Below are positions 4,157 to 34,933 of a DNA stretch of 37,527 bases, one piece after another; position 1 is the first letter of the stretch; each line of letters starts with the position of its first letter. The stretch lies in contig JACRNJ010000072.1 of assembly GCA_016219285.1 (NCBI GenBank), positions 1 to 37,527 on the forward strand. Direction: 5' to 3'. The notes beneath the pieces were generated by a model, which did not search any database, was not told the DNA's origin, and saw only the letters and a list, made by a program, of their open reading frames with translations. Source of the stretch: Deltaproteobacteria bacterium. GTDB lineage: Bacteria > Desulfobacterota > GWC2-55-46 > UBA9637. A program made the position numbers and the translations under genes.

Positions 4157-4519
4157 ATGGTTGCCATTGCCGCATATAAAAGAAGCTGGGAGCGAATTTG
4201 GCGCAGAGAAAAAGCCTTGCAGGAAAAGCGCCGCTCCGAGGCGTTGAAAATTGCGGAGGGTTTGAAGGATATTCTTGTGCAGGAGTTCAAGGTCAGCAGG
4301 GTAATCCTGTTCGGCTCTGTTCTGAAAAAGCACGGTTTTGATGCGGCTTCGGATATAGACATCGCCGTCGAAGGACTGGCTAAAAAATCTTATTTCAAGG
4401 CAGTTGCAAGGCTTATGATGCAAAGCCAGTTTCCTGTGGATCTGAAGCCGGTAGAGGATGTCCGTGAGTCCATCAAGAAGAGCATAGCAAAGGGGGCCGT
4501 CCTGTATGAAGAAAGATAA
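4157..4519 (+). CDS. MNT-type nucleotidyltransferase, probable MntA-like antitoxin
   Basis: A 120-residue protein with the minimal nucleotidyltransferase motif GSVLKKHGFDAASDIDIAV (GS, then DxD), preceded by a basic helical segment. In MntA/HepT systems such proteins neutralise the HEPN toxin by transferring AMP to it. The partner gene starts at 4506 and overlaps by 14 bases, the standard arrangement. The ATG has GTAGGGG about 6 bases upstream and lies 9 bases after the transketolase stop, so readthrough transcription from that operon is likely. Both genes look intact. Assignment as antitoxin follows from family and context. Confidence 0.85.
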   Translation: MVAIAAYKRSWERIWRREKALQEKRRSEALKIAEGLKDILVQEFKVSRVILFGSVLKKHGFDAASDIDIAVEGLAKKSYFKAVARLMMQSQFPVDLKPVEDVRESIKKSIAKGAVLYEER

Positions 4520-4991
4520 ACTTCCCGAACTCATCTCCGAAATCAAAGACGAGCTTGAATTGCTGAAGCGGGTGGCGGCCGATATCGGAGATGCCCGCCG
4601 TGAAATGAAAGGCCATCCTGAAATGAGTGAAGTTTACGAGGAAAGCCTTGCGCTCAAACTTCATAATTTTTATACCGGCTGCGAGAGGATCTTTCATACA
4701 ATAGCGGATGACATGAACGGCGGCGCGTCTTCTTCTTTTGAGTGGCACAAGAGGCTGTTAAAGAGCATGTCCCTTGCAATAGAAGGAAAAAGACCGCCGG
4801 TAATCTCAAAAGCCACCGAAAAGGAACTTGAAGAGTTTCTTGCGTTCAGGCATGTGATAAGAAATATCTACGGTTTTGAAATTGACTCAGAACGGTTACA
4901 GAGGCTTCTTGAAAAGGTCAAGCCGGTATTTGAAAGTTTCAAAAAGGATACTATGAAGTTTCTCGGTTTTTTGAGGGGCATGGCAAAATAA
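4506..4991 (+). CDS. HepT-like HEPN-domain protein, probable toxin of the pair
   Basis: 161 residues, almost wholly helical by appearance, with the segment FRHVIRNIYGFEIDSERLQ near residues 118-136. This matches the HepT-like proteins encoded beside MNT nucleotidyltransferases; members of that family carry RHxxRNxYGF rather than the classical RNxxxHxY HEPN motif. The expected role is an RNase toxin held silent by AMPylation from the upstream protein. Start and length look normal, and the start codon overlaps the upstream gene. The lack of a canonical Rx4-6H means RNase activity is inferred only from kinship. Confidence 0.75.
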   Translation: MKKDKLPELISEIKDELELLKRVAADIGDARREMKGHPEMSEVYEESLALKLHNFYTGCERIFHTIADDMNGGASSSFEWHKRLLKSMSLAIEGKRPPVISKATEKELEEFLAFRHVIRNIYGFEIDSERLQRLLEKVKPVFESFKKDTMKFLGFLRGMAK

Positions 4992-5669: not shown

Positions 5670-6965
5670 ATGATCAACTCCATCAGAGGCTTTAACGACA
5701 TACTTCCGCCGGAGACAAGTATCTGGCAGCATATAGAAAAAGAGGCGCGGGAGATTTTTGAGGCTTACGGATTTTCCGAGATTCGCGTTCCCATTGTGGA
5801 AAAGACCGGGCTTTTTTCGCGGAGCATCGGCGAGACAACCGACATCGTGGAAAAGGAGATGTATACCTTTGAGGACAGGCACGGCGAAGCCATTACGCTA
5901 AGGCCAGAAGGAACTGCGCCGGTTGTGCGCGCATACATAGAGCATAAAATTTACGGCAATGACCCTGTGGCGAAATTTTATTATCTCGGCCCCATGTTTC
6001 GGTATGAAAGGCCGCAAAAGGGGCGCTTCCGCCAGTTTCACCAGATAGGCGCGGAGGTCTTCGGCATAGACGACCCTAAAGCGGATGCAGAAACCCTTGA
6101 GATGCTTGTATGCCTTTTTCAGAAACTTGGTCTTGAAGGCATAACCCTCCAGATAAACTCTCTCGGCTGCAAGGAGTGCAGGCCGCTCTACAAAGAAAAA
6201 CTCCTCAGTTTTTTGCAGGATAAAAAATCTCAACTCTGTCATGACTGCCAGCGAAGGTTTGAAATAAATCCGCTGCGCACGCTTGATTGTAAAAGTCCGG
6301 GCTGCATCGAGATAACAGCGCACGCGCCGTCAATCCTTGATGCAGTATGCGATGGATGTAAAACCCATTTTGAAAAGGTAAAGGAATATCTTGCGCTCTC
6401 GCAAGTAGATTTTTCCTTAAATCAGAAAATGGTGCGGGGGCTTGATTATTACATCAGGACAACATTTGAGATAACCGCTTTGGGTCTCGGCTCGCAGAAT
6501 GCCGTCGCAGCAGGCGGCAGATATGACGGCCTGGTGAAAAGCCTTGACGGGCCTGATACGCCCGGCTTTGGATTCGCCATCGGCATGGAACGGTTGGTGA
6601 TGCTGGCAAAGGACAGGGGCCAACAGTTAGCGGTCAGCAATCAGCCGCTTGTATTTATTGCAATTCTCGGAGATAAAGCTGAAAAAGAGGCTGTTGGTTT
6701 GATTAAAAGAATAAGGACAAGCGGCATAAGACTCGAAAGGGATTACAGCAGCAAGAGTATTAAATCACAGATGAAACGCGCTGATAAACTTGGGGCAAGA
6801 TATGTTCTTATCCTCGGCGATGATGAGTTGTCATCCTGCAGCATCATAATAAAAAACATGCAGAGCGGAGAGCAGGAAAAGGTTGCGCTGGATAGGGTGG
6901 AAGATAGAATGAAGGAGCTTCTGCGAAAAAGTGCTTCAATCAAAATAAACCTTGACATATTATAA
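5670..6965 (+). CDS. hisS: Histidyl-tRNA synthetase
   Basis: Charges tRNA-His in the cytosol. The 431 residues carry class II motif 1 (INSIRGFNDILPPE and the first helix), motif 2 (MFRYERPQKGRFRQFHQIG), the histidine-specific LVRGLDYY-type segment (MVRGLDYYIRTTFEI) and motif 3 (GFGFAIGMERLVML). A C-terminal anticodon-binding domain follows (VFIAILGDKAEKEAVGLIK onward). The last ten residues (SIKINLDIL) look slightly extended. The ATG at 5670 has AAAGGA about 9 bases upstream. A perfect TTGACA lies inside the last codons (6952-6957) and may be the -35 box for the vapB transcript. Confidence 0.97.
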   Translation: MINSIRGFNDILPPETSIWQHIEKEAREIFEAYGFSEIRVPIVEKTGLFSRSIGETTDIVEKEMYTFEDRHGEAITLRPEGTAPVVRAYIEHKIYGNDPVAKFYYLGPMFRYERPQKGRFRQFHQIGAEVFGIDDPKADAETLEMLVCLFQKLGLEGITLQINSLGCKECRPLYKEKLLSFLQDKKSQLCHDCQRRFEINPLRTLDCKSPGCIEITAHAPSILDAVCDGCKTHFEKVKEYLALSQVDFSLNQKMVRGLDYYIRTTFEITALGLGSQNAVAAGGRYDGLVKSLDGPDTPGFGFAIGMERLVMLAKDRGQQLAVSNQPLVFIAILGDKAEKEAVGLIKRIRTSGIRLERDYSSKSIKSQMKRADKLGARYVLILGDDELSSCSIIIKNMQSGEQEKVALDRVEDRMKELLRKSASIKINLDIL

Positions 6966-6979
6966 ATACATACTAATAC
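6952..6979 (+). promoter_or_regulatory. Possible promoter for the vapB transcript
   Basis: A perfect TTGACA (6952-6957) and a weak TAATAC (6974-6979) are 16 bases apart. Transcription would start near 6986, which would place the CRISPR-like repeat at 7004-7035 wholly inside the 5' untranslated region. The -10 box is poor, so this is tentative. Confidence 0.3.
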
Positions 6980-7003
6980 ATATAAACAATACATATTAAA
7001 AGT

Positions 7004-7035
7004 GTCGCGTCCTACACGGGCTCGTGGATTGAAAC
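7004..7035 (+). CRISPR. Solitary type I-C-like CRISPR repeat directly before the vapB start codon
   Basis: A single 32-base unit begins GTCGCGTCC, has a tacac loop, and ends GTGGATTGAAAC. Length, the GTCGC start and the GTGGATTGAAAC end match the type I-C repeat family. The stem is imperfect (one mismatch and one G-T pair over 7 bp). No second repeat, spacer, leader or cas gene is visible within the window. The final C at 7035 is followed immediately by the ATG of vapB at 7036. Confidence 0.75.
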
Positions 7036-7233
7036 ATGAGAACAACACTGAACATAGAAGACGAACTGCTCAAGAAGGCAAAAAGACTGACTGGCATTCA
7101 GGAAAAAACTTCCCTTGTCAGACTGGGACTTGAGGCGTTGATTGCGAAGGAGAGCGGAAAGAGACTTGCCATGCTCGGAGGAACGGAAAAAAAACTGAAG
7201 CCGATTCCCCGTAGGCGGCCAACAGGCGATTAG
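7036..7233 (+). CDS. vapB: VapB-family antitoxin (ribbon-helix-helix type)
   Basis: 65 residues beginning MRTTLNIEDELLKKAKRLTG, followed by a SLVRLGLEALIAKES helix and a basic, proline-rich tail (KLKPIPRRRP). This is the short VapB family that pairs with PIN toxins. The N-terminal part would bind operator DNA and the tail would wrap the toxin. The gene is intact, but its partner just downstream (7235) is cut to 33 codons. No ribosome-binding site precedes the ATG; the preceding bases are the 3' end of a CRISPR repeat. With the toxin lost, it may persist as an orphan anti-addiction or autoregulatory protein. Confidence 0.88.
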   Translation: MRTTLNIEDELLKKAKRLTGIQEKTSLVRLGLEALIAKESGKRLAMLGGTEKKLKPIPRRRPTGD

Positions 7234-7234
7234 C

Positions 7235-7336
7235 ATGGTTCTTGTCGACACATCCGTCTGGATATCCCATCTCCTCAAGGGAAATGCCGGACTTGAAACT
7301 TTGCTCGACGACGGCCATGTTGTTTGTCATCCATAA
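7235..7336 (+). pseudogene. vapC: Truncated VapC (PIN-domain toxin)
   Basis: Starts one base after the vapB stop with MVLVDTSVWISHLLKGNAGL, which holds the first catalytic Asp of the PIN domain. It ends in a stop after 33 codons (...GHVVCHP). A complete PIN toxin has about 130 residues with three further acidic residues, all missing here. The break falls directly before the AT-rich leader of the next toxin-antitoxin relic, so a deletion or insertion junction near 7334 removed the remainder. Confidence 0.8.
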
Positions 7337-7356: not shown

Positions 7357-7545
7357 ATGTTAACATTAGATAAGGAAAAGATAATTAAAAGTTTACAAGA
7401 CTTACCGGTAAAAACCACTATTGAAGATGCAATGGAACGTTTATATCTGCTTGCAAAGATTGAAAAGTGACTTAAACAGGCAGACGAAGGTCAATGCATT
7501 TCTCATGAAGAAGCAAAAGAAAAGATGAAAAAATGGCTAAAATAA
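7357..7545 (+). pseudogene. RelB/ParD-like antitoxin with an internal stop
   Basis: The ATG at 7357 (ribosome-binding site aaggaggg) reads MLTLDKEKIIKSLQDLPVKT ... LYLLAKIEK, then TGA at 7468-7470. The same frame goes on LKQADEGQCISHEEAKEKMK to a normal TAA at 7543. Relatives read KIEKGLKQADEG at this point, so the stop replaces a glycine codon (GGA to TGA). Intact length would be 62 residues. The frame overlaps the start of the toxin relic. Confidence 0.7.
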
Positions 7546-7838
7546 AATAGACACCTCAAGCTCTGGATGATGTTGAAGCTATAACTAATTTTATTGATAG
7601 AGATTCAACTTATTATGCTGGTATTTTTACAATAAAAGTTTTTGAGTCGGTAGAACGGCTGGAATTATTTCCTGAATCTGGACGTATTGTTCCGGAATTA
7701 AATCATAAAGAAATAAGAGAAGTCATTCTGGGGAATTACAGGATAATTTATAGAGTTAAAGAGGAAATAGTAGAAATACTAACAGTTTATCATTCAGCAA
7801 GATTACTTGAAATTGAAAATATAGAAAATTTGTTATAA
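7533..7838 (+). pseudogene. RelE/ParE-like toxin with an early stop
   Basis: The ATG at 7533 overlaps the antitoxin end. It reads MAKIK, then TAG at 7548-7550, then TPQALDDVEAITNFI ... ELFPESGRIVPEL, with EIREVILGNYRIIYRV. That is the ParE/RelE fold with its conserved arginines. Relatives read KIKWTPQALDD, so the stop replaces the tryptophan (TGG to TAG). Otherwise it is open to TAA at 7836, about 101 residues. Both partners carry one nonsense change, so the module is dead unless read through. Confidence 0.75.
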
Positions 7839-28877: not shown

Positions 28878-31800
28878 TTGCCAAAACGAAATGACATAAA
28901 AAAAATCCTTATCATCGGCGCCGGCCCTATTGTCATCGGACAGGCGTGTGAGTTTGATTACTCAGGCACGCAGGCTTGCAAGGCTCTGAAAGAAGAGGGT
29001 TATAAGGTCATCCTCATCAACTCAAACCCTGCAACCATTATGACTGACCCTAATCTTGCGGACAGGACATATATTGAGCCTGTTATACCCGAGATAATTG
29101 AGAAGATAATTGAAAAGGAAAGGCCTGATGCGCTTTTGCCGACCATGGGCGGGCAGACTGCGCTTAATACTGCTGTTGCCCTTGCAGAATCGGGCACTCT
29201 TGACAAATATAATGTTGAACTTATTGGCGCAAAACTCCATGCAATAAAAAAGGCAGAAGACAGAGAGCTTTTCAAAGAGGCAATGGAGAGGATTGGTCTT
29301 TCTGTGCCGAGAAGCGGTTATGCAAAGACACTTACAGATGCAATAAGTATAATGGAGACCATGGATTATCCTGCCATTATAAGACCTTCCTTTACATTAG
29401 GCGGCACAGGAGGCGGTATTGCATATAACGCAGAGGAATTTAAGGAAATGGTTCAGTATGGTCTGGATGCAAGCCCTTACAGCGAAATCTTGGTTGAGGA
29501 ATCTGTTATAGGGTGGAAGGAATATGAGCTTGAGGTGATGAGGGATAGGCAAGACAATGTGGTCATCATATGCTCCATAGAGAATTTTGACCCCATGGGT
29601 GTTCATACCGGCGATTCAATTACAGTTGCGCCCGCACAAACCTTGACTGACAAGGAATATCAAATTATGAGGGATGCTGCGTTAAAGATTATCAGAGAGA
29701 TTGGCGTTGACACAGGCGGTTCAAATATCCAGTTTTCTGTGAACCCTGACAACGGCAAGATGTATATAATTGAGATGAATCCGAGGGTCTCCCGCTCATC
29801 CGCCCTTGCCAGTAAGGCAACTGGTTTTCCAATTGCAAAGATTGCCGCAAAACTTGCTGTTGGTTATACGCTTGATGAGATCCCAAATGACATAACAAAG
29901 AAGACGCCTGCATGCTTTGAGCCAACCATTGATTATGTTGTTACAAAAGTTCCAAGGTTCACATTCGAAAAATTTCCGCAGGCTGACACAATACTGACAA
30001 CACAGATGAAGTCTGTGGGTGAAGTAATGGCGATAGGCAGAACATTTAAAGAATCTCTGCAAAAGTCGCTCAGGTCTCTTGAGATAGGGAGTTATGGTTT
30101 TGAGATAAAGAAGTCTATGAGATACGAGGGGGCGGATGATTATATAGAAGTAATTAAGGAAAAACTGAGGGCGCCAAATTGGGAGAGGCTTTGGTATATA
30201 GGGGATGCATTCAGGTGCGGCATGACCGTTGATGAGATATTTGAATTGTCAAACATAGATAGATGGTTTTTAAATAATATAAAAGAAATAATAGAGTTTG
30301 AAGAAGAGATAAAAAATTGCGAAGGGCTTTCATCCGATGCATTGAGAATGGCAAAAGAGCTTGGTTTTTCTGACAGGCGCATAGCCCAGCTTCTATCAAC
30401 AGGAAAGAAGTCAGGCGGCAAAAGGTGCGATGTTCCTTCCGGCAAAGATTTAGAAGTAAAAGAACATGATATCAGAAAAAAAAGAATAGATGCCGGTATC
30501 CTGCCTGTCTATAAAACCGTTGACACCTGCGGCGCGGAATTTGAGGCACACACGCCGTATCTGTATTCAAGTTATGAGAAACCATACTACAACATAGAAG
30601 TCAGAAGTCAGAAGTCAGAAGTCGGAAGTTTAAAATCTGATTGTGAAGCAAATCCTACCAACCGCAAGAAGGTGATAATCCTCGGCAGCGGACCGAATAG
30701 AATCGGCCAGGGTATTGAATTTGACTACTGTTGTGTGCATGCGTCGTTTGCATTGAAAGAAGAAGGGATTGAAACAATAATGGTTAATTGTAATCCTGAG
30801 ACTGTTTCAACAGATTATGACACATCGGACAGGCTTTATTTTGAACCACTTACATTTGAAGATGTTATGAATATAATTGAAAAGGAAAAACCGTATGGTG
30901 TTATTGTTCAGTTTGGCGGTCAGACGCCTCTGAAACTTGCTGTGCCTCTGGAAAAGGCGGGAGTAAATATACTCGGCACATCGCCTGATTCCATTGACAT
31001 CGCAGAGGATAGAGAGCGATTTGACAAACTCCTTACAAAATTAAGCATCAAAAGACCGGAAAGCGGCATTGCCCGCTCAATAGATGAAGCAATAAAGGTT
31101 GCGGCAAGAATCGGCTATCCTGTAATGGTCAGGCCTTCCTATGTTCTCGGCGGCAGGGCAATGGAGATAGTTTACACAGAGGATAACTTGAAAGGTTATA
31201 TGACACGGGCAGTGGAGGCATCCCCTGAACATCCTGTGCTTATTGATAAGTTCTTAAACAATGCAACAGAGGTTGATGTTGATTGTATAAGCGATGGAAA
31301 GGATGTTGTTATCGGAGGCATTATGGAGCATATTGAAGAGGCAGGCATTCATTCCGGCGATTCAGCCTGCTCAATTCCGCCATACTCTCTTGATGTAAGA
31401 GTGGTTGATGATATAAGAAAGCAAACAATAGCCATGGCAAAAGAGTTGAAGGTCATCGGTTTGATGAATGTTCAGTTTGCAGTGAAAAAGTCAGAAGTCA
31501 GAAGTCAGAAGTCAGAAGTCAGAAATTCAGATTATGAAATATATGTGCTTGAGGTGAACCCAAGGGCGTCACGGACAGCGCCGTTTGTAAGCAAGGCCAT
31601 CGGCAGTCCACTGGCAAAGATTGCGGCAAAGGTAATGCTCGGCAAGACACTCAAAGAACTTGGATTTACAACAGAGGTTGTGCCGCAGCACACATCGGTC
31701 AAGGAATCAGTATTTCCATTCATCAAATTCCCTGGAGTTGATACCATCCTCGGCCCTGAGATGAAATCAACAGGCGAGGTTATGGGCATAGATGCGGATT

Positions 31801-32315: not shown

Positions 32316-32362
32316 CAAATTGGGGAAGGTAATGACTGTCCCGACTTTATCAGGAAATGATT

Positions 32363-34933
32363 ATGGCGAAAGAGAAGAAGAAAAGCGGATTAAATAAAGG
32401 CGATATTGAATCCTACAGGCATGAGTCTGAGACTCGAAAAAATGCCGTGCCTGTGGGTCTTGCGTCATATGACACTGCAAAACCAAAGCCAAAGAAATAT
32501 GAATACGACCCGCACCTTGACCCGCAGTTAGTCTGGGCAGGCAAAAAAGAGCATACTTCCTTTGAAGTTCCTACTGTATCACTCCACATCCATGAACACA
32601 TAGCGCCAGAGGCAATTATCCGTTCAGTGAAACGGGAGCCGACACAGCCTGAATTATTTGCAAAGCCGGAGATGCCGTTAAAAGAACTTGTTGAGTTTTA
32701 TCAGCATGAGATGGACTGGACAAACAGGCTGATACTTGGCGATTCACTTCTGATTATGAATTCCCTTCTTGAGAGGGAGATGATGGGCGGGAAGGTTCAG
32801 ACAATATTTGTTGACCCACCGTATGGCGTTAAGTTTTCCTCAAACTTCCAGCCTTCGGTTAAGCAGAGGGATGTAAAAGATTCCGATGAATTCATGGTGC
32901 GCGAACCTGAGCAAATCAAGGCGTATCGTGATACATGGCAACTGGGGATACATTCGTATCTTGCTTATCTGAGAGATAGACTGCTTCTAAGTCGAGATCT
33001 GCTAACAGATTCAGGGAGTATATTTGTGCAGATTTCTGATGAGAATATGCATCATGTAAGGGAGTTGATGGATGAGGTGTTTGAGAAAGAGAATTTTGTT
33101 AGCTTAATATCATTCACTACAACAAGCGGTATTCCATCAAATACTTTATCACGTGCTGGTGATTACATATTATGGTATGCAAAAGATTTAGAACAAATAA
33201 AATACAGACAACAGTTTAAAAATAAAGACCTCGAAGATATAGCGCATTACAATTTACTTTATCTTCCAGATGGAAAAATAAGAAGATTAAGTAAAGAAGA
33301 AACAGAGGACACTACTTTAATACCAAAAAATGCTAAATTAGCAACATCTCAGTCACTTACATCCCAAGGTGCAACAAAATCGGATTCAACAGTAGTCTTG
33401 AATGGAATAGAGTATAGGCCCCCAAGCGACCAACATTGGAAAACAACAGTAGAAGGGATCAAAAACCTTTTTGACAAAGGAAGGCTTTTGATTTCAGGAA
33501 AATCAATTAGATATCTCCGATTTGATAGTGATTTTCCAGTAAGCCCTATCAACAATATATGGACTGACACAGTAATAGGTAGCCAAGAGAAAGAATATGT
33601 TGTACAAACATCAATAAAAACTATCCAACGTTGTATCCTCATGACCACAGACCCCGGTGATTTGGTATTTGACCCGACCTGCGGAAGCGGGACAACTGCT
33701 TATGTTGCTGAGCAATGGGGAAGGCGCTGGCTCACTTGTGATACCTCAAGGGTTGCCCTTACGCTTGCAAGACAACGCTTGATGACTGCTGTATTTCCTT
33801 ACTACAAACTTGCTGATGATGAGATGGGTGTTAAGGGAGGATTTATATATGAGGAAGTGCCTCATGTAACATTGAAGTCTATTGCCCAGAACGAACCGTC
33901 TGAAAAGGAAATTCTTTTTGATAAGCCTGAGATTGACAGAAAAAGGATTAGGGTTGCAGGCCCATTGACTGTTGAAGGCATACCACAGCATTCTACTTTG
34001 GATTTTGCTGATGCGAATTATGAGGCTGAGGTAAAGGCACTTTCAGTAGAAAATGTCATTCCTGCGAAAGCAGGAATCCGGAAGGCTAAAAACATGGATT
34101 CCCGTTTGCACGGGAATGACAGATTAGATTCATGTAGCATCAGAGTGGAAGCCGACAACCATGTCCATACCCTCATAGAACTTCTCCGCAAAGACGGCGT
34201 AACCTTTCCCGGCAACAAAAAGATGAAATTTGAAAATCTTATATCCGTGAGAAGCGGTTTCATCCACGCTGAAGGCGAACCTGTTGAAAAAAATGGCATC
34301 AAGAAAGTAGCCGTATCTTTTGGGCCTCCGCATGGCCCTGTTACTGTAGGACAGGTTCAGGAGGGTATCCGTGAGGCTCACATCAATGGATATAACGGCA
34401 TAATCTTCTGTGGCTTTGCCTTCGATTCATCAGCAATGGATGTGAAACATCCAAAGGTAAAGGTCTTTTATTCCCATATCAGACCAGATGTGCTTGTGGG
34501 TGATTTGCTCAAGACAACAGCCTCAAGCCAGTTGTTTACAGTATTCGGCGAACCTGATATTGAGATAAAGAAAATCCCAAATCTCAAATCTCAAATTTCA
34601 AATCCTGAATACGAAGTAATCCTCAAAGGCGTTGACATCTACGACCCATTGACAGGCGAGGTCTATTCAGATAACGGCAACAGGATTGCCGCATGGTTTA
34701 TTGATACAGATTATGACAAGCGCGCCTTCTGCATATCTCAGGCATTCTTCCCTGACTCAACTGCATGGGACAAATTAAAGAGGGCATTGAAGGCAACAAT
34801 AGACGAAGATAAGTTTGAGCTCCTCACCAGCACCCAATCCCTGCCATTTAAACTCGGCAAAGAAAAACGAATCGCTGTCAAGGTCATTGACCACAGAGGA
34901 AATGAGGTTATGGTGGTGAGGGAGGTGGGGTAA
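32363..34933 (+). CDS. mod: Type III restriction-modification methyltransferase (Mod)
   Basis: Beta-class DNA adenine methyltransferase of a type III system. 856 residues from ATG 32363 (aggaaa upstream; ATG 32357 adds two). Catalytic DPPY motif in QTIFVDPPYGVKF near residue 152; AdoMet-binding FDPTCGSGTTAYVAEQWG near 436. The C-terminal half (from about 610) is a long conserved extension shared by this Mod subtype. Two repeat-derived inserts occur: a 22-residue VIPAKAGIRKAKNMDSRLHG-type cassette at about 565-586 (34055-34120) and NLKSQISNPE near 740 (34573-34606). The variable target-recognition region (about 240-410) is less GC-rich. Frame intact. Res lies downstream after a toxin-antitoxin pair. 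Confidence 0.93.
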   Translation: MAKEKKKSGLNKGDIESYRHESETRKNAVPVGLASYDTAKPKPKKYEYDPHLDPQLVWAGKKEHTSFEVPTVSLHIHEHIAPEAIIRSVKREPTQPELFAKPEMPLKELVEFYQHEMDWTNRLILGDSLLIMNSLLEREMMGGKVQTIFVDPPYGVKFSSNFQPSVKQRDVKDSDEFMVREPEQIKAYRDTWQLGIHSYLAYLRDRLLLSRDLLTDSGSIFVQISDENMHHVRELMDEVFEKENFVSLISFTTTSGIPSNTLSRAGDYILWYAKDLEQIKYRQQFKNKDLEDIAHYNLLYLPDGKIRRLSKEETEDTTLIPKNAKLATSQSLTSQGATKSDSTVVLNGIEYRPPSDQHWKTTVEGIKNLFDKGRLLISGKSIRYLRFDSDFPVSPINNIWTDTVIGSQEKEYVVQTSIKTIQRCILMTTDPGDLVFDPTCGSGTTAYVAEQWGRRWLTCDTSRVALTLARQRLMTAVFPYYKLADDEMGVKGGFIYEEVPHVTLKSIAQNEPSEKEILFDKPEIDRKRIRVAGPLTVEGIPQHSTLDFADANYEAEVKALSVENVIPAKAGIRKAKNMDSRLHGNDRLDSCSIRVEADNHVHTLIELLRKDGVTFPGNKKMKFENLISVRSGFIHAEGEPVEKNGIKKVAVSFGPPHGPVTVGQVQEGIREAHINGYNGIIFCGFAFDSSAMDVKHPKVKVFYSHIRPDVLVGDLLKTTASSQLFTVFGEPDIEIKKIPNLKSQISNPEYEVILKGVDIYDPLTGEVYSDNGNRIAAWFIDTDYDKRAFCISQAFFPDSTAWDKLKRALKATIDEDKFELLTSTQSLPFKLGKEKRIAVKVIDHRGNEVMVVREVG
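34055..34120. repeat. 66-base double-hairpin cassette inside mod
   Basis: Outer ends gtcattcc/ggaatgac; inner hairpin 1 attcctgc-gaaa-gcaggaat (34058-34077); inner hairpin 2 attcccgt ... acgggaat (34098-34117). Sixty-six bases equal 22 codons, so the frame is kept. The translated motif VIPAKAGI ... MDSRLHGND is a familiar repeat product in several bacterial groups. Confidence 0.85.
34573..34606 (+). repeat. Heptamer repeat in mod (AATCTCA units)
   Basis: Tandem aatctca, aatctca, aatttca, aatcctg units read in frame as NLKSQISNP. Confidence 0.75.

Follow-up and report, generated by a model that had tools for sequence, protein, structure and literature searches.

Solitary repeat at the vapB start codon

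The window, by which we mean the whole stretch of 37,527 nt analysed here, corresponds to an entire contig (C57) of a 2.28-Mb genome that is 99% complete in 84 contigs. Downstream of hisS, the window carries an intact vapB antitoxin gene and the remains of vapC, and a single 32-nt sequence, GTCGCGTCCTACACGGGCTCGTGGATTGAAAC, ends at the base immediately preceding the vapB ATG (Table 1). The first-pass annotation had described this sequence as one type I-C-like CRISPR repeat joined directly to vapB, and this description proved exact in both position and sequence. It had also noted the lack of any other repeat in 37 kb; consistently, we found neither a second copy with up to 8 mismatches nor a tandem array in the window.

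Table 1. Positions of the repeat, the vapBC genes and other features in the window.
Feature	Position	Strand	Remarks
MNT-HepT type toxin-antitoxin pair	4157-4991		PolBeta-type nucleotidyltransferase and HepT-like genes, upstream of hisS
hisS	5670-6965	+	histidyl-tRNA synthetase; upstream chromosomal neighbour, common to the sister genome
TTGACA hexamer	6952-6957		
AT-rich operator/promoter-like leader of vapBC module	6966-7001	+	conserved in the sister genome G001; similar before other vapB genes
Solitary type I-C-like repeat	7004-7035	+	32 nt; pattern and covariance-model searches
Repeat hairpin	7006-7024	+	arms 7006-7012 and 7018-7024; one mismatch, one G-U
3′ tag GTGGATTGAAAC	7024-7035	+	12 nt, abuts the vapB ATG
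Predicted stem CTCGTG/CATGAG	7021-7040	+	7021-7026 with 7035-7040; folding prediction only
vapB	7036-7233	+	intact, 65 aa; PF09957, E = 1.6e-15
vapC remnant	7235-7336	+	truncated, 33 codons; intact 120-aa PIN protein in G001
Remains of second toxin-antitoxin-like pair	7358-7837		directly past the vapC remnant; in-frame stops in both genes (by eye)
In-frame short tandem repeats AGAAGTCAG in carB	30582-30654 and 31479-31551		translated SQKSEV-like
DNA methyltransferase gene	32357-34933		type III Mod-like by eye

The unit follows the consensus and stem plan of type I-C repeats, and is full-length, intergenic and without other repeats nearby, as are solitary repeat units. In I-C systems, the 3′ tag region of the repeat provides the 5′ handle of the crRNA. 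Searched with a covariance model of such repeats, the complete set of contigs (2.28 Mb) yielded the window repeat at E = 2.9e-10, the repeat being itself among the 19 training sequences of the model. A degenerate I-C pattern search, which is independent of the model, gave zero matches when the pattern was reversed as a control. The window repeat is far above chance expectation. An Rfam search yielded no match at the repeat, and only spurious microRNA matches elsewhere in the searched stretch. The minimum free energy of the window 32-mer was -6.7 kcal/mol, no better than that of shuffled sequences (z = 0.06), whereas array repeats fold at -13 to -15 kcal/mol.

The locus encodes a VapB antitoxin domain and lacks a functional PIN toxin partner, the truncation of vapC having been correctly recognised in the first-pass annotation. 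The same annotation took a TTGACA hexamer as evidence that the repeat lies in the vapB transcript. The hexamer is present; owing to a poor -10 element, however, the forward strand gave no recognisable sigma-70-like promoter. Folding of the leader predicted a stem that buries the vapB start codon and competes with the repeat hairpin. The junction of repeat and vapB, proposed earlier as a thing to look for in relatives, was carried by none of 80 vapB relatives from named genomes, and distant relatives of vapB also have ordinary leaders.

CRISPR content of the genome and its congeners

We failed to find a type I-C cas locus or array elsewhere in this genome, where the first-pass annotation had suggested looking. 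The search for Cas5d (TIGR01876) gave no match in the genome, and no I-C array was found in the ~0.95 Mb inspected or by pattern and model searches of the whole genome. The reported absence of cas genes from the window agrees with genome-wide searches for Cas1 and Cas5d, in which Cas1 matches occurred only on two other contigs, C71 and C8, and Cas5d had none. The cas genes of this genome belong only to type I-B (Cst2-type Cas7) and type III-A (Csm4 and Csm5). What the degenerate I-C pattern did detect was two further solitary repeats on contig C49 (21341-21372 and 21767-21798), both differing from the window unit in their stems. The covariance model, trained on all three solitary repeats of this genome among others, scored them at E = 2.9e-10, 4.0e-9 and 1.7e-8, and nothing else below 0.08. 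Of the 33 hairpins in the family, these three rank among the four weakest.

The assignment of the window unit to type I-C by its sequence agrees with the situation in two congeners, G002 and G003. Both possess Cas5d, that of G002 scoring below the curated cut-off, together with genuine I-C arrays whose repeats are related to the window unit and differ from it by 5 mismatches. Five further genomes from the same Deltaproteobacteria class, which is uncultured, also have Cas5d. A type I-C cas operon of G002 contains a degenerate solitary repeat (L014, 607-638) that separates its cas1 and cas2 genes and lies upstream of its array. Separately, on the reverse strand near position 6338 of locus L551 (G000:C31), we noticed GCGGATTGAAAC preceded by a perfect intergenic hairpin of ~15 bp, the whole resembling an enlarged repeat.

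We also considered whether GGATTGAAAC is a translation tag enriched before ATG throughout the genome. It occurs 8 times in 0.95 Mb of this genome, three times before ATG (one of these within carB and another being the window repeat itself), and the idea was abandoned as the copies are too few.

Empty sites

In the sister genome G001, a congener, the hisS-vapB-vapC locus is also present (85% identity), and its leader is free of the repeat. The G001 sequence reads TAAAA-AGGGGATAAATTT-ATG, while the window reads TAAAA-GT-repeat-ATG. Thus GT and the repeat stand in place of a 13-nt leader that bears the Shine-Dalgarno sequence in G001, and neither a spacer, a CRISPR leader nor a cas gene accompanies the repeat. 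The locus resembles other VapBC loci in its intact vapB and usual operator-like leader, but differs from them in having a repeat where the Shine-Dalgarno sequence should be and in its truncated vapC.

A second clean empty site was found at a lipoprotein gene, with GTAAAAA, the 32-nt repeat and GAACCAAAGG in G001 versus GTAAAAA-ACTTT-GAACCAAAGG in G002; the corresponding sequence in G000 is GTAAGAA-CTTT-GAACC. At both sites a whole 32-nt unit was gained, 13 and 5 nt, respectively, were replaced, and nothing was duplicated. Insertion by the Cas1-Cas2 integrase was rejected on account of the missing target-site duplications and the replaced nucleotides. Shedding from a resident array was likewise rejected: in G019 and G024, the solitary repeats are unlike the array repeats of the same genome and thus did not arise from those arrays recently. 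At the gene for a Mut7-C RNase, the whole repeat is present in G004 and only AAGCGGATTGAAAC-ATG in G000, the latter being probably the remains of a repeat. For adk, rpsK and uppS, the leaders were too diverged from those of sister genomes to define the insertion. A dispersed element of ~218 nt ends just upstream of one solitary repeat (L071, G004:C14); dozens of copies, with about 72-96% identity, occur in G000, G001, G004, G005, G006 and G008.

Lone repeats across the class

We used both the pattern and the covariance model to search 63 genomes of the class, removing arrays and chance matches inside ORFs (weak model matches at L144 and L149-L151 were discarded in this way). The search left 34 solitary I-C-like candidates, one of which (G040 C87) is doubtful. 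Eighteen of the 34 lie in sense orientation 0-32 nt upstream of an ATG and three in antisense, while positions drawn at random from the intergenic parts of these loci are adjacent to a start codon in 7.8% of cases (p ~7e-12). These counts considered ATG starts only, ORFs of at least 62 aa and distances within 32 nt, the ORFs being called mechanically so that a few short ones (e.g., 64 aa in G029) may be spurious. As the repeats of G047 and G061 form an orthologous pair, a stricter count is 17 of 33. The bias was not built into the search, since the sequence downstream of the repeats played no part in it.

The sense-oriented units precede vapB (0 nt), an ORF of G003 (1 nt; its relatives in G004 and G007 have a start at this position as well), secD (1 nt, between yajC and secD), rpmC (3 nt, between rplP and rpmC), the Mut7-C RNase gene (4 nt), uppS (5 nt, between frr and uppS), gcvT (6 nt), an FAD oxidoreductase gene (7 nt), a metallo-beta-lactamase-fold gene and a DUF374 gene (10 nt each), rpsK (15 nt), rpoZ (15 nt, between gmk and rpoZ), adk (16 nt, between secY and adk), rpmG (16 nt, after tuf), gapA (21 nt), a POR-family subunit gene (27 nt, in two related genomes), a polysaccharide deacetylase gene (28 nt) and a PapD-like chaperone gene with a TTG start (31 nt). 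The identities of these downstream genes are backed by Pfam, except for the G003 ORF. The association of the lone repeats of this class with the start codons of housekeeping genes was unexpected and is statistically strong, and lends unexpected support, at the class level, to the notion that it matters for a repeat to lie just before a start codon. No published description of lone repeats before start codons was found among open-licence papers, which counts as weak evidence.

In other classes of the phylum, sense adjacency was seen for one of 11 solitary I-C repeats, many of which are plain consensus repeats and some of which lie beside cas2 or other arrays. Among 57 solitary repeats of the exact pattern in viral contigs, 17 were adjacent in sense and 13 in antisense, leaving no clear sense bias; individual phage genes do carry a unit directly before their ATG. 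Viral loci such as L289, L323 and L353 contain I-C-like solitary repeats whose hairpins are shortened, with UUCG or GAAA loops, in a constant GTCGC...GCGTGGATTGAAAC frame; several of these repeats immediately precede phage genes.

Solitary repeats occur in 2 of 7 genomes with Cas5d and in roughly 15 of 56 without it, and so are no more frequent where Cas5d is present, the absence of Cas5d being uncertain for G019 and G024 because their arrays are at contig ends.

Discussion

We consider it probable, though well short of assured, that the window feature is an ectopic solitary I-C-like repeat of a dispersed family, which is now decaying as a passenger in the vapB leader. According to this scenario, single 32-nt repeats would have spread unit by unit, free of spacers, a CRISPR leader and cas genes, through the genomes of the class, with a preference for gene leaders and the sense orientation, a short distance 5′ of start codons. 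At vapB, a unit would have replaced the 13-nt Shine-Dalgarno leader, and the vapBC locus is now decayed. We infer the relic status of the window repeat and this order of events. The unit would be a passenger at present, as the genome has no Cas5d that could bind or cleave it and its hairpin is degraded. Because the Shine-Dalgarno sequence has been removed and the start codon is predicted to pair with the repeat, translation of vapB would, if anything, be lowered. Of the two readings offered in the first-pass annotation, a relic and a regulatory link, the former is the better for the window copy. Nevertheless, two observations speak against a mere passenger. The start-codon bias and the intact, covarying hairpins of many other copies fit selection equally well, and the 12-nt tag in the window is perfect despite the decayed hairpin; the tag itself could be what is kept there.

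In another reading, solitary repeats are functional leader elements, and binding or cleavage of the hairpin by a protein (Cas5d in genomes that have it, otherwise some other RNA-binding factor) sets the translation or stability of the downstream mRNA. We judge this rather unlikely, even though the strong sense bias and the closeness to start codons before essential genes suit it. In the 19 solitary repeats first aligned, 90% of the stem pairs are kept and the pairs covary (7 double-changed cells versus 2.2 in shuffles), and length variants keep long perfect stems, as in a degenerate G032 copy (-20.7 kcal/mol). Such stem conservation and covariation hint at a constraint on the hairpin in some genomes. 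There are also two orthologous retentions, one before the oxidoreductase gene of G047 and G061 and the other before the Mut7-C gene, where G004 has the whole repeat and G000 the 3′ tag only. On the other hand, most solo-bearing genomes are devoid of Cas5d and its presence does not make solitary repeats commoner, most insertions are species-specific, and the hairpin in the window is degraded. The covariation may even predate insertion, as array repeats vary in their stems as well.

Solitary repeat units that act as RNA anti-CRISPRs (Racr) have been sought in phages and plasmids, where they often have their own promoter and usually match the CRISPR subtype of the host (PMC10651486). They represent a known class of solitary repeats in mobile elements, I-C examples included, and share with the window unit one full repeat outside arrays, with hairpin and handle, and without cas genes (PMC10651486). 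Viral contigs do contain many I-C-like solitary repeats, and some of these immediately precede phage genes. We nevertheless find it very unlikely that the window unit is a repeat of this kind delivered by a phage or plasmid. It lies between hisS and vapB, at a chromosomal locus common to the sister genome, with no plasmid match and no exact copy in viral contigs, and its host has no type I-C system to match. Other copies in the class are also chromosomal, in the leaders of housekeeping genes including ribosomal-protein and sec operons, in hosts mostly without Cas5d, and the viral repeats show no clear sense bias.

The collapse of an array, the first proposal of the first-pass annotation, deserves hardly any credence. 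It supposes that a type I-C array once stood here and that recombination left one repeat. The window unit does share with real arrays of the congeners G002 and G003 the 32-nt repeat of the form GTCGC...GTGGATTGAAAC and the 7-bp stem plan, with 5 mismatches, but it differs from them in lacking a second repeat, spacer, leader and I-C cas genes. The empty site in G001, with only a 13-nt leader at the sister position, led us to reject array collapse, as the replacement by a single unit with no remains of a spacer, leader or cas gene argues against it. The genome moreover has three solitary repeats with different stems, and at least 17 other leader insertions precede unrelated genes. Regulation of vapB through Cas5d cleavage in this organism, the second proposal, is scarcely credible and is unsupported in this genome: the exact junction and intact vapB would suit it, but with Cas5d not found in a 99% complete assembly whose cas genes are of types I-B and III-A the link has no actor, the hairpin is weak, vapC is truncated and none of the 80 vapB relatives shares the junction.

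In the CreTA system, the CreA repeat with its spacer-like part guides Cascade to repress creT, which encodes a toxic RNA (PMC9458426). The vapB locus is reminiscent of CreTA in that an ectopic, partly degenerate CRISPR repeat resides near a toxin-antitoxin function. It differs in that the neighbouring vapB encodes a protein, that a cognate Cascade is probably absent (no I-C Cas5d was found) and that many unrelated genes take part in the pattern.

So far, the known ectopic CRISPR repeats have come for the most part from mobile elements and from a few regulatory RNAs that are linked to a resident CRISPR system. We think it improbable that the CRISPR repeats of this class left immunity to become a dispersed 5′-leader RNA element ahead of the start codons of housekeeping genes, through which a repeat-binding factor would be coupled to the expression of genes for the ribosome, secretion and metabolism. 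Such an element would be the natural counterpart of engineered leader processing by Csy4/Cas6. In any case, a class-wide set of chromosomal leader repeats, mostly without the cognate nuclease, raises the question of how a single repeat inserts alone. It also raises a second question, whether repeat hairpins in such a position are scars that do no harm, serve as sites of RNA processing, or pose a hazard that only genomes lacking Cas5d can tolerate.
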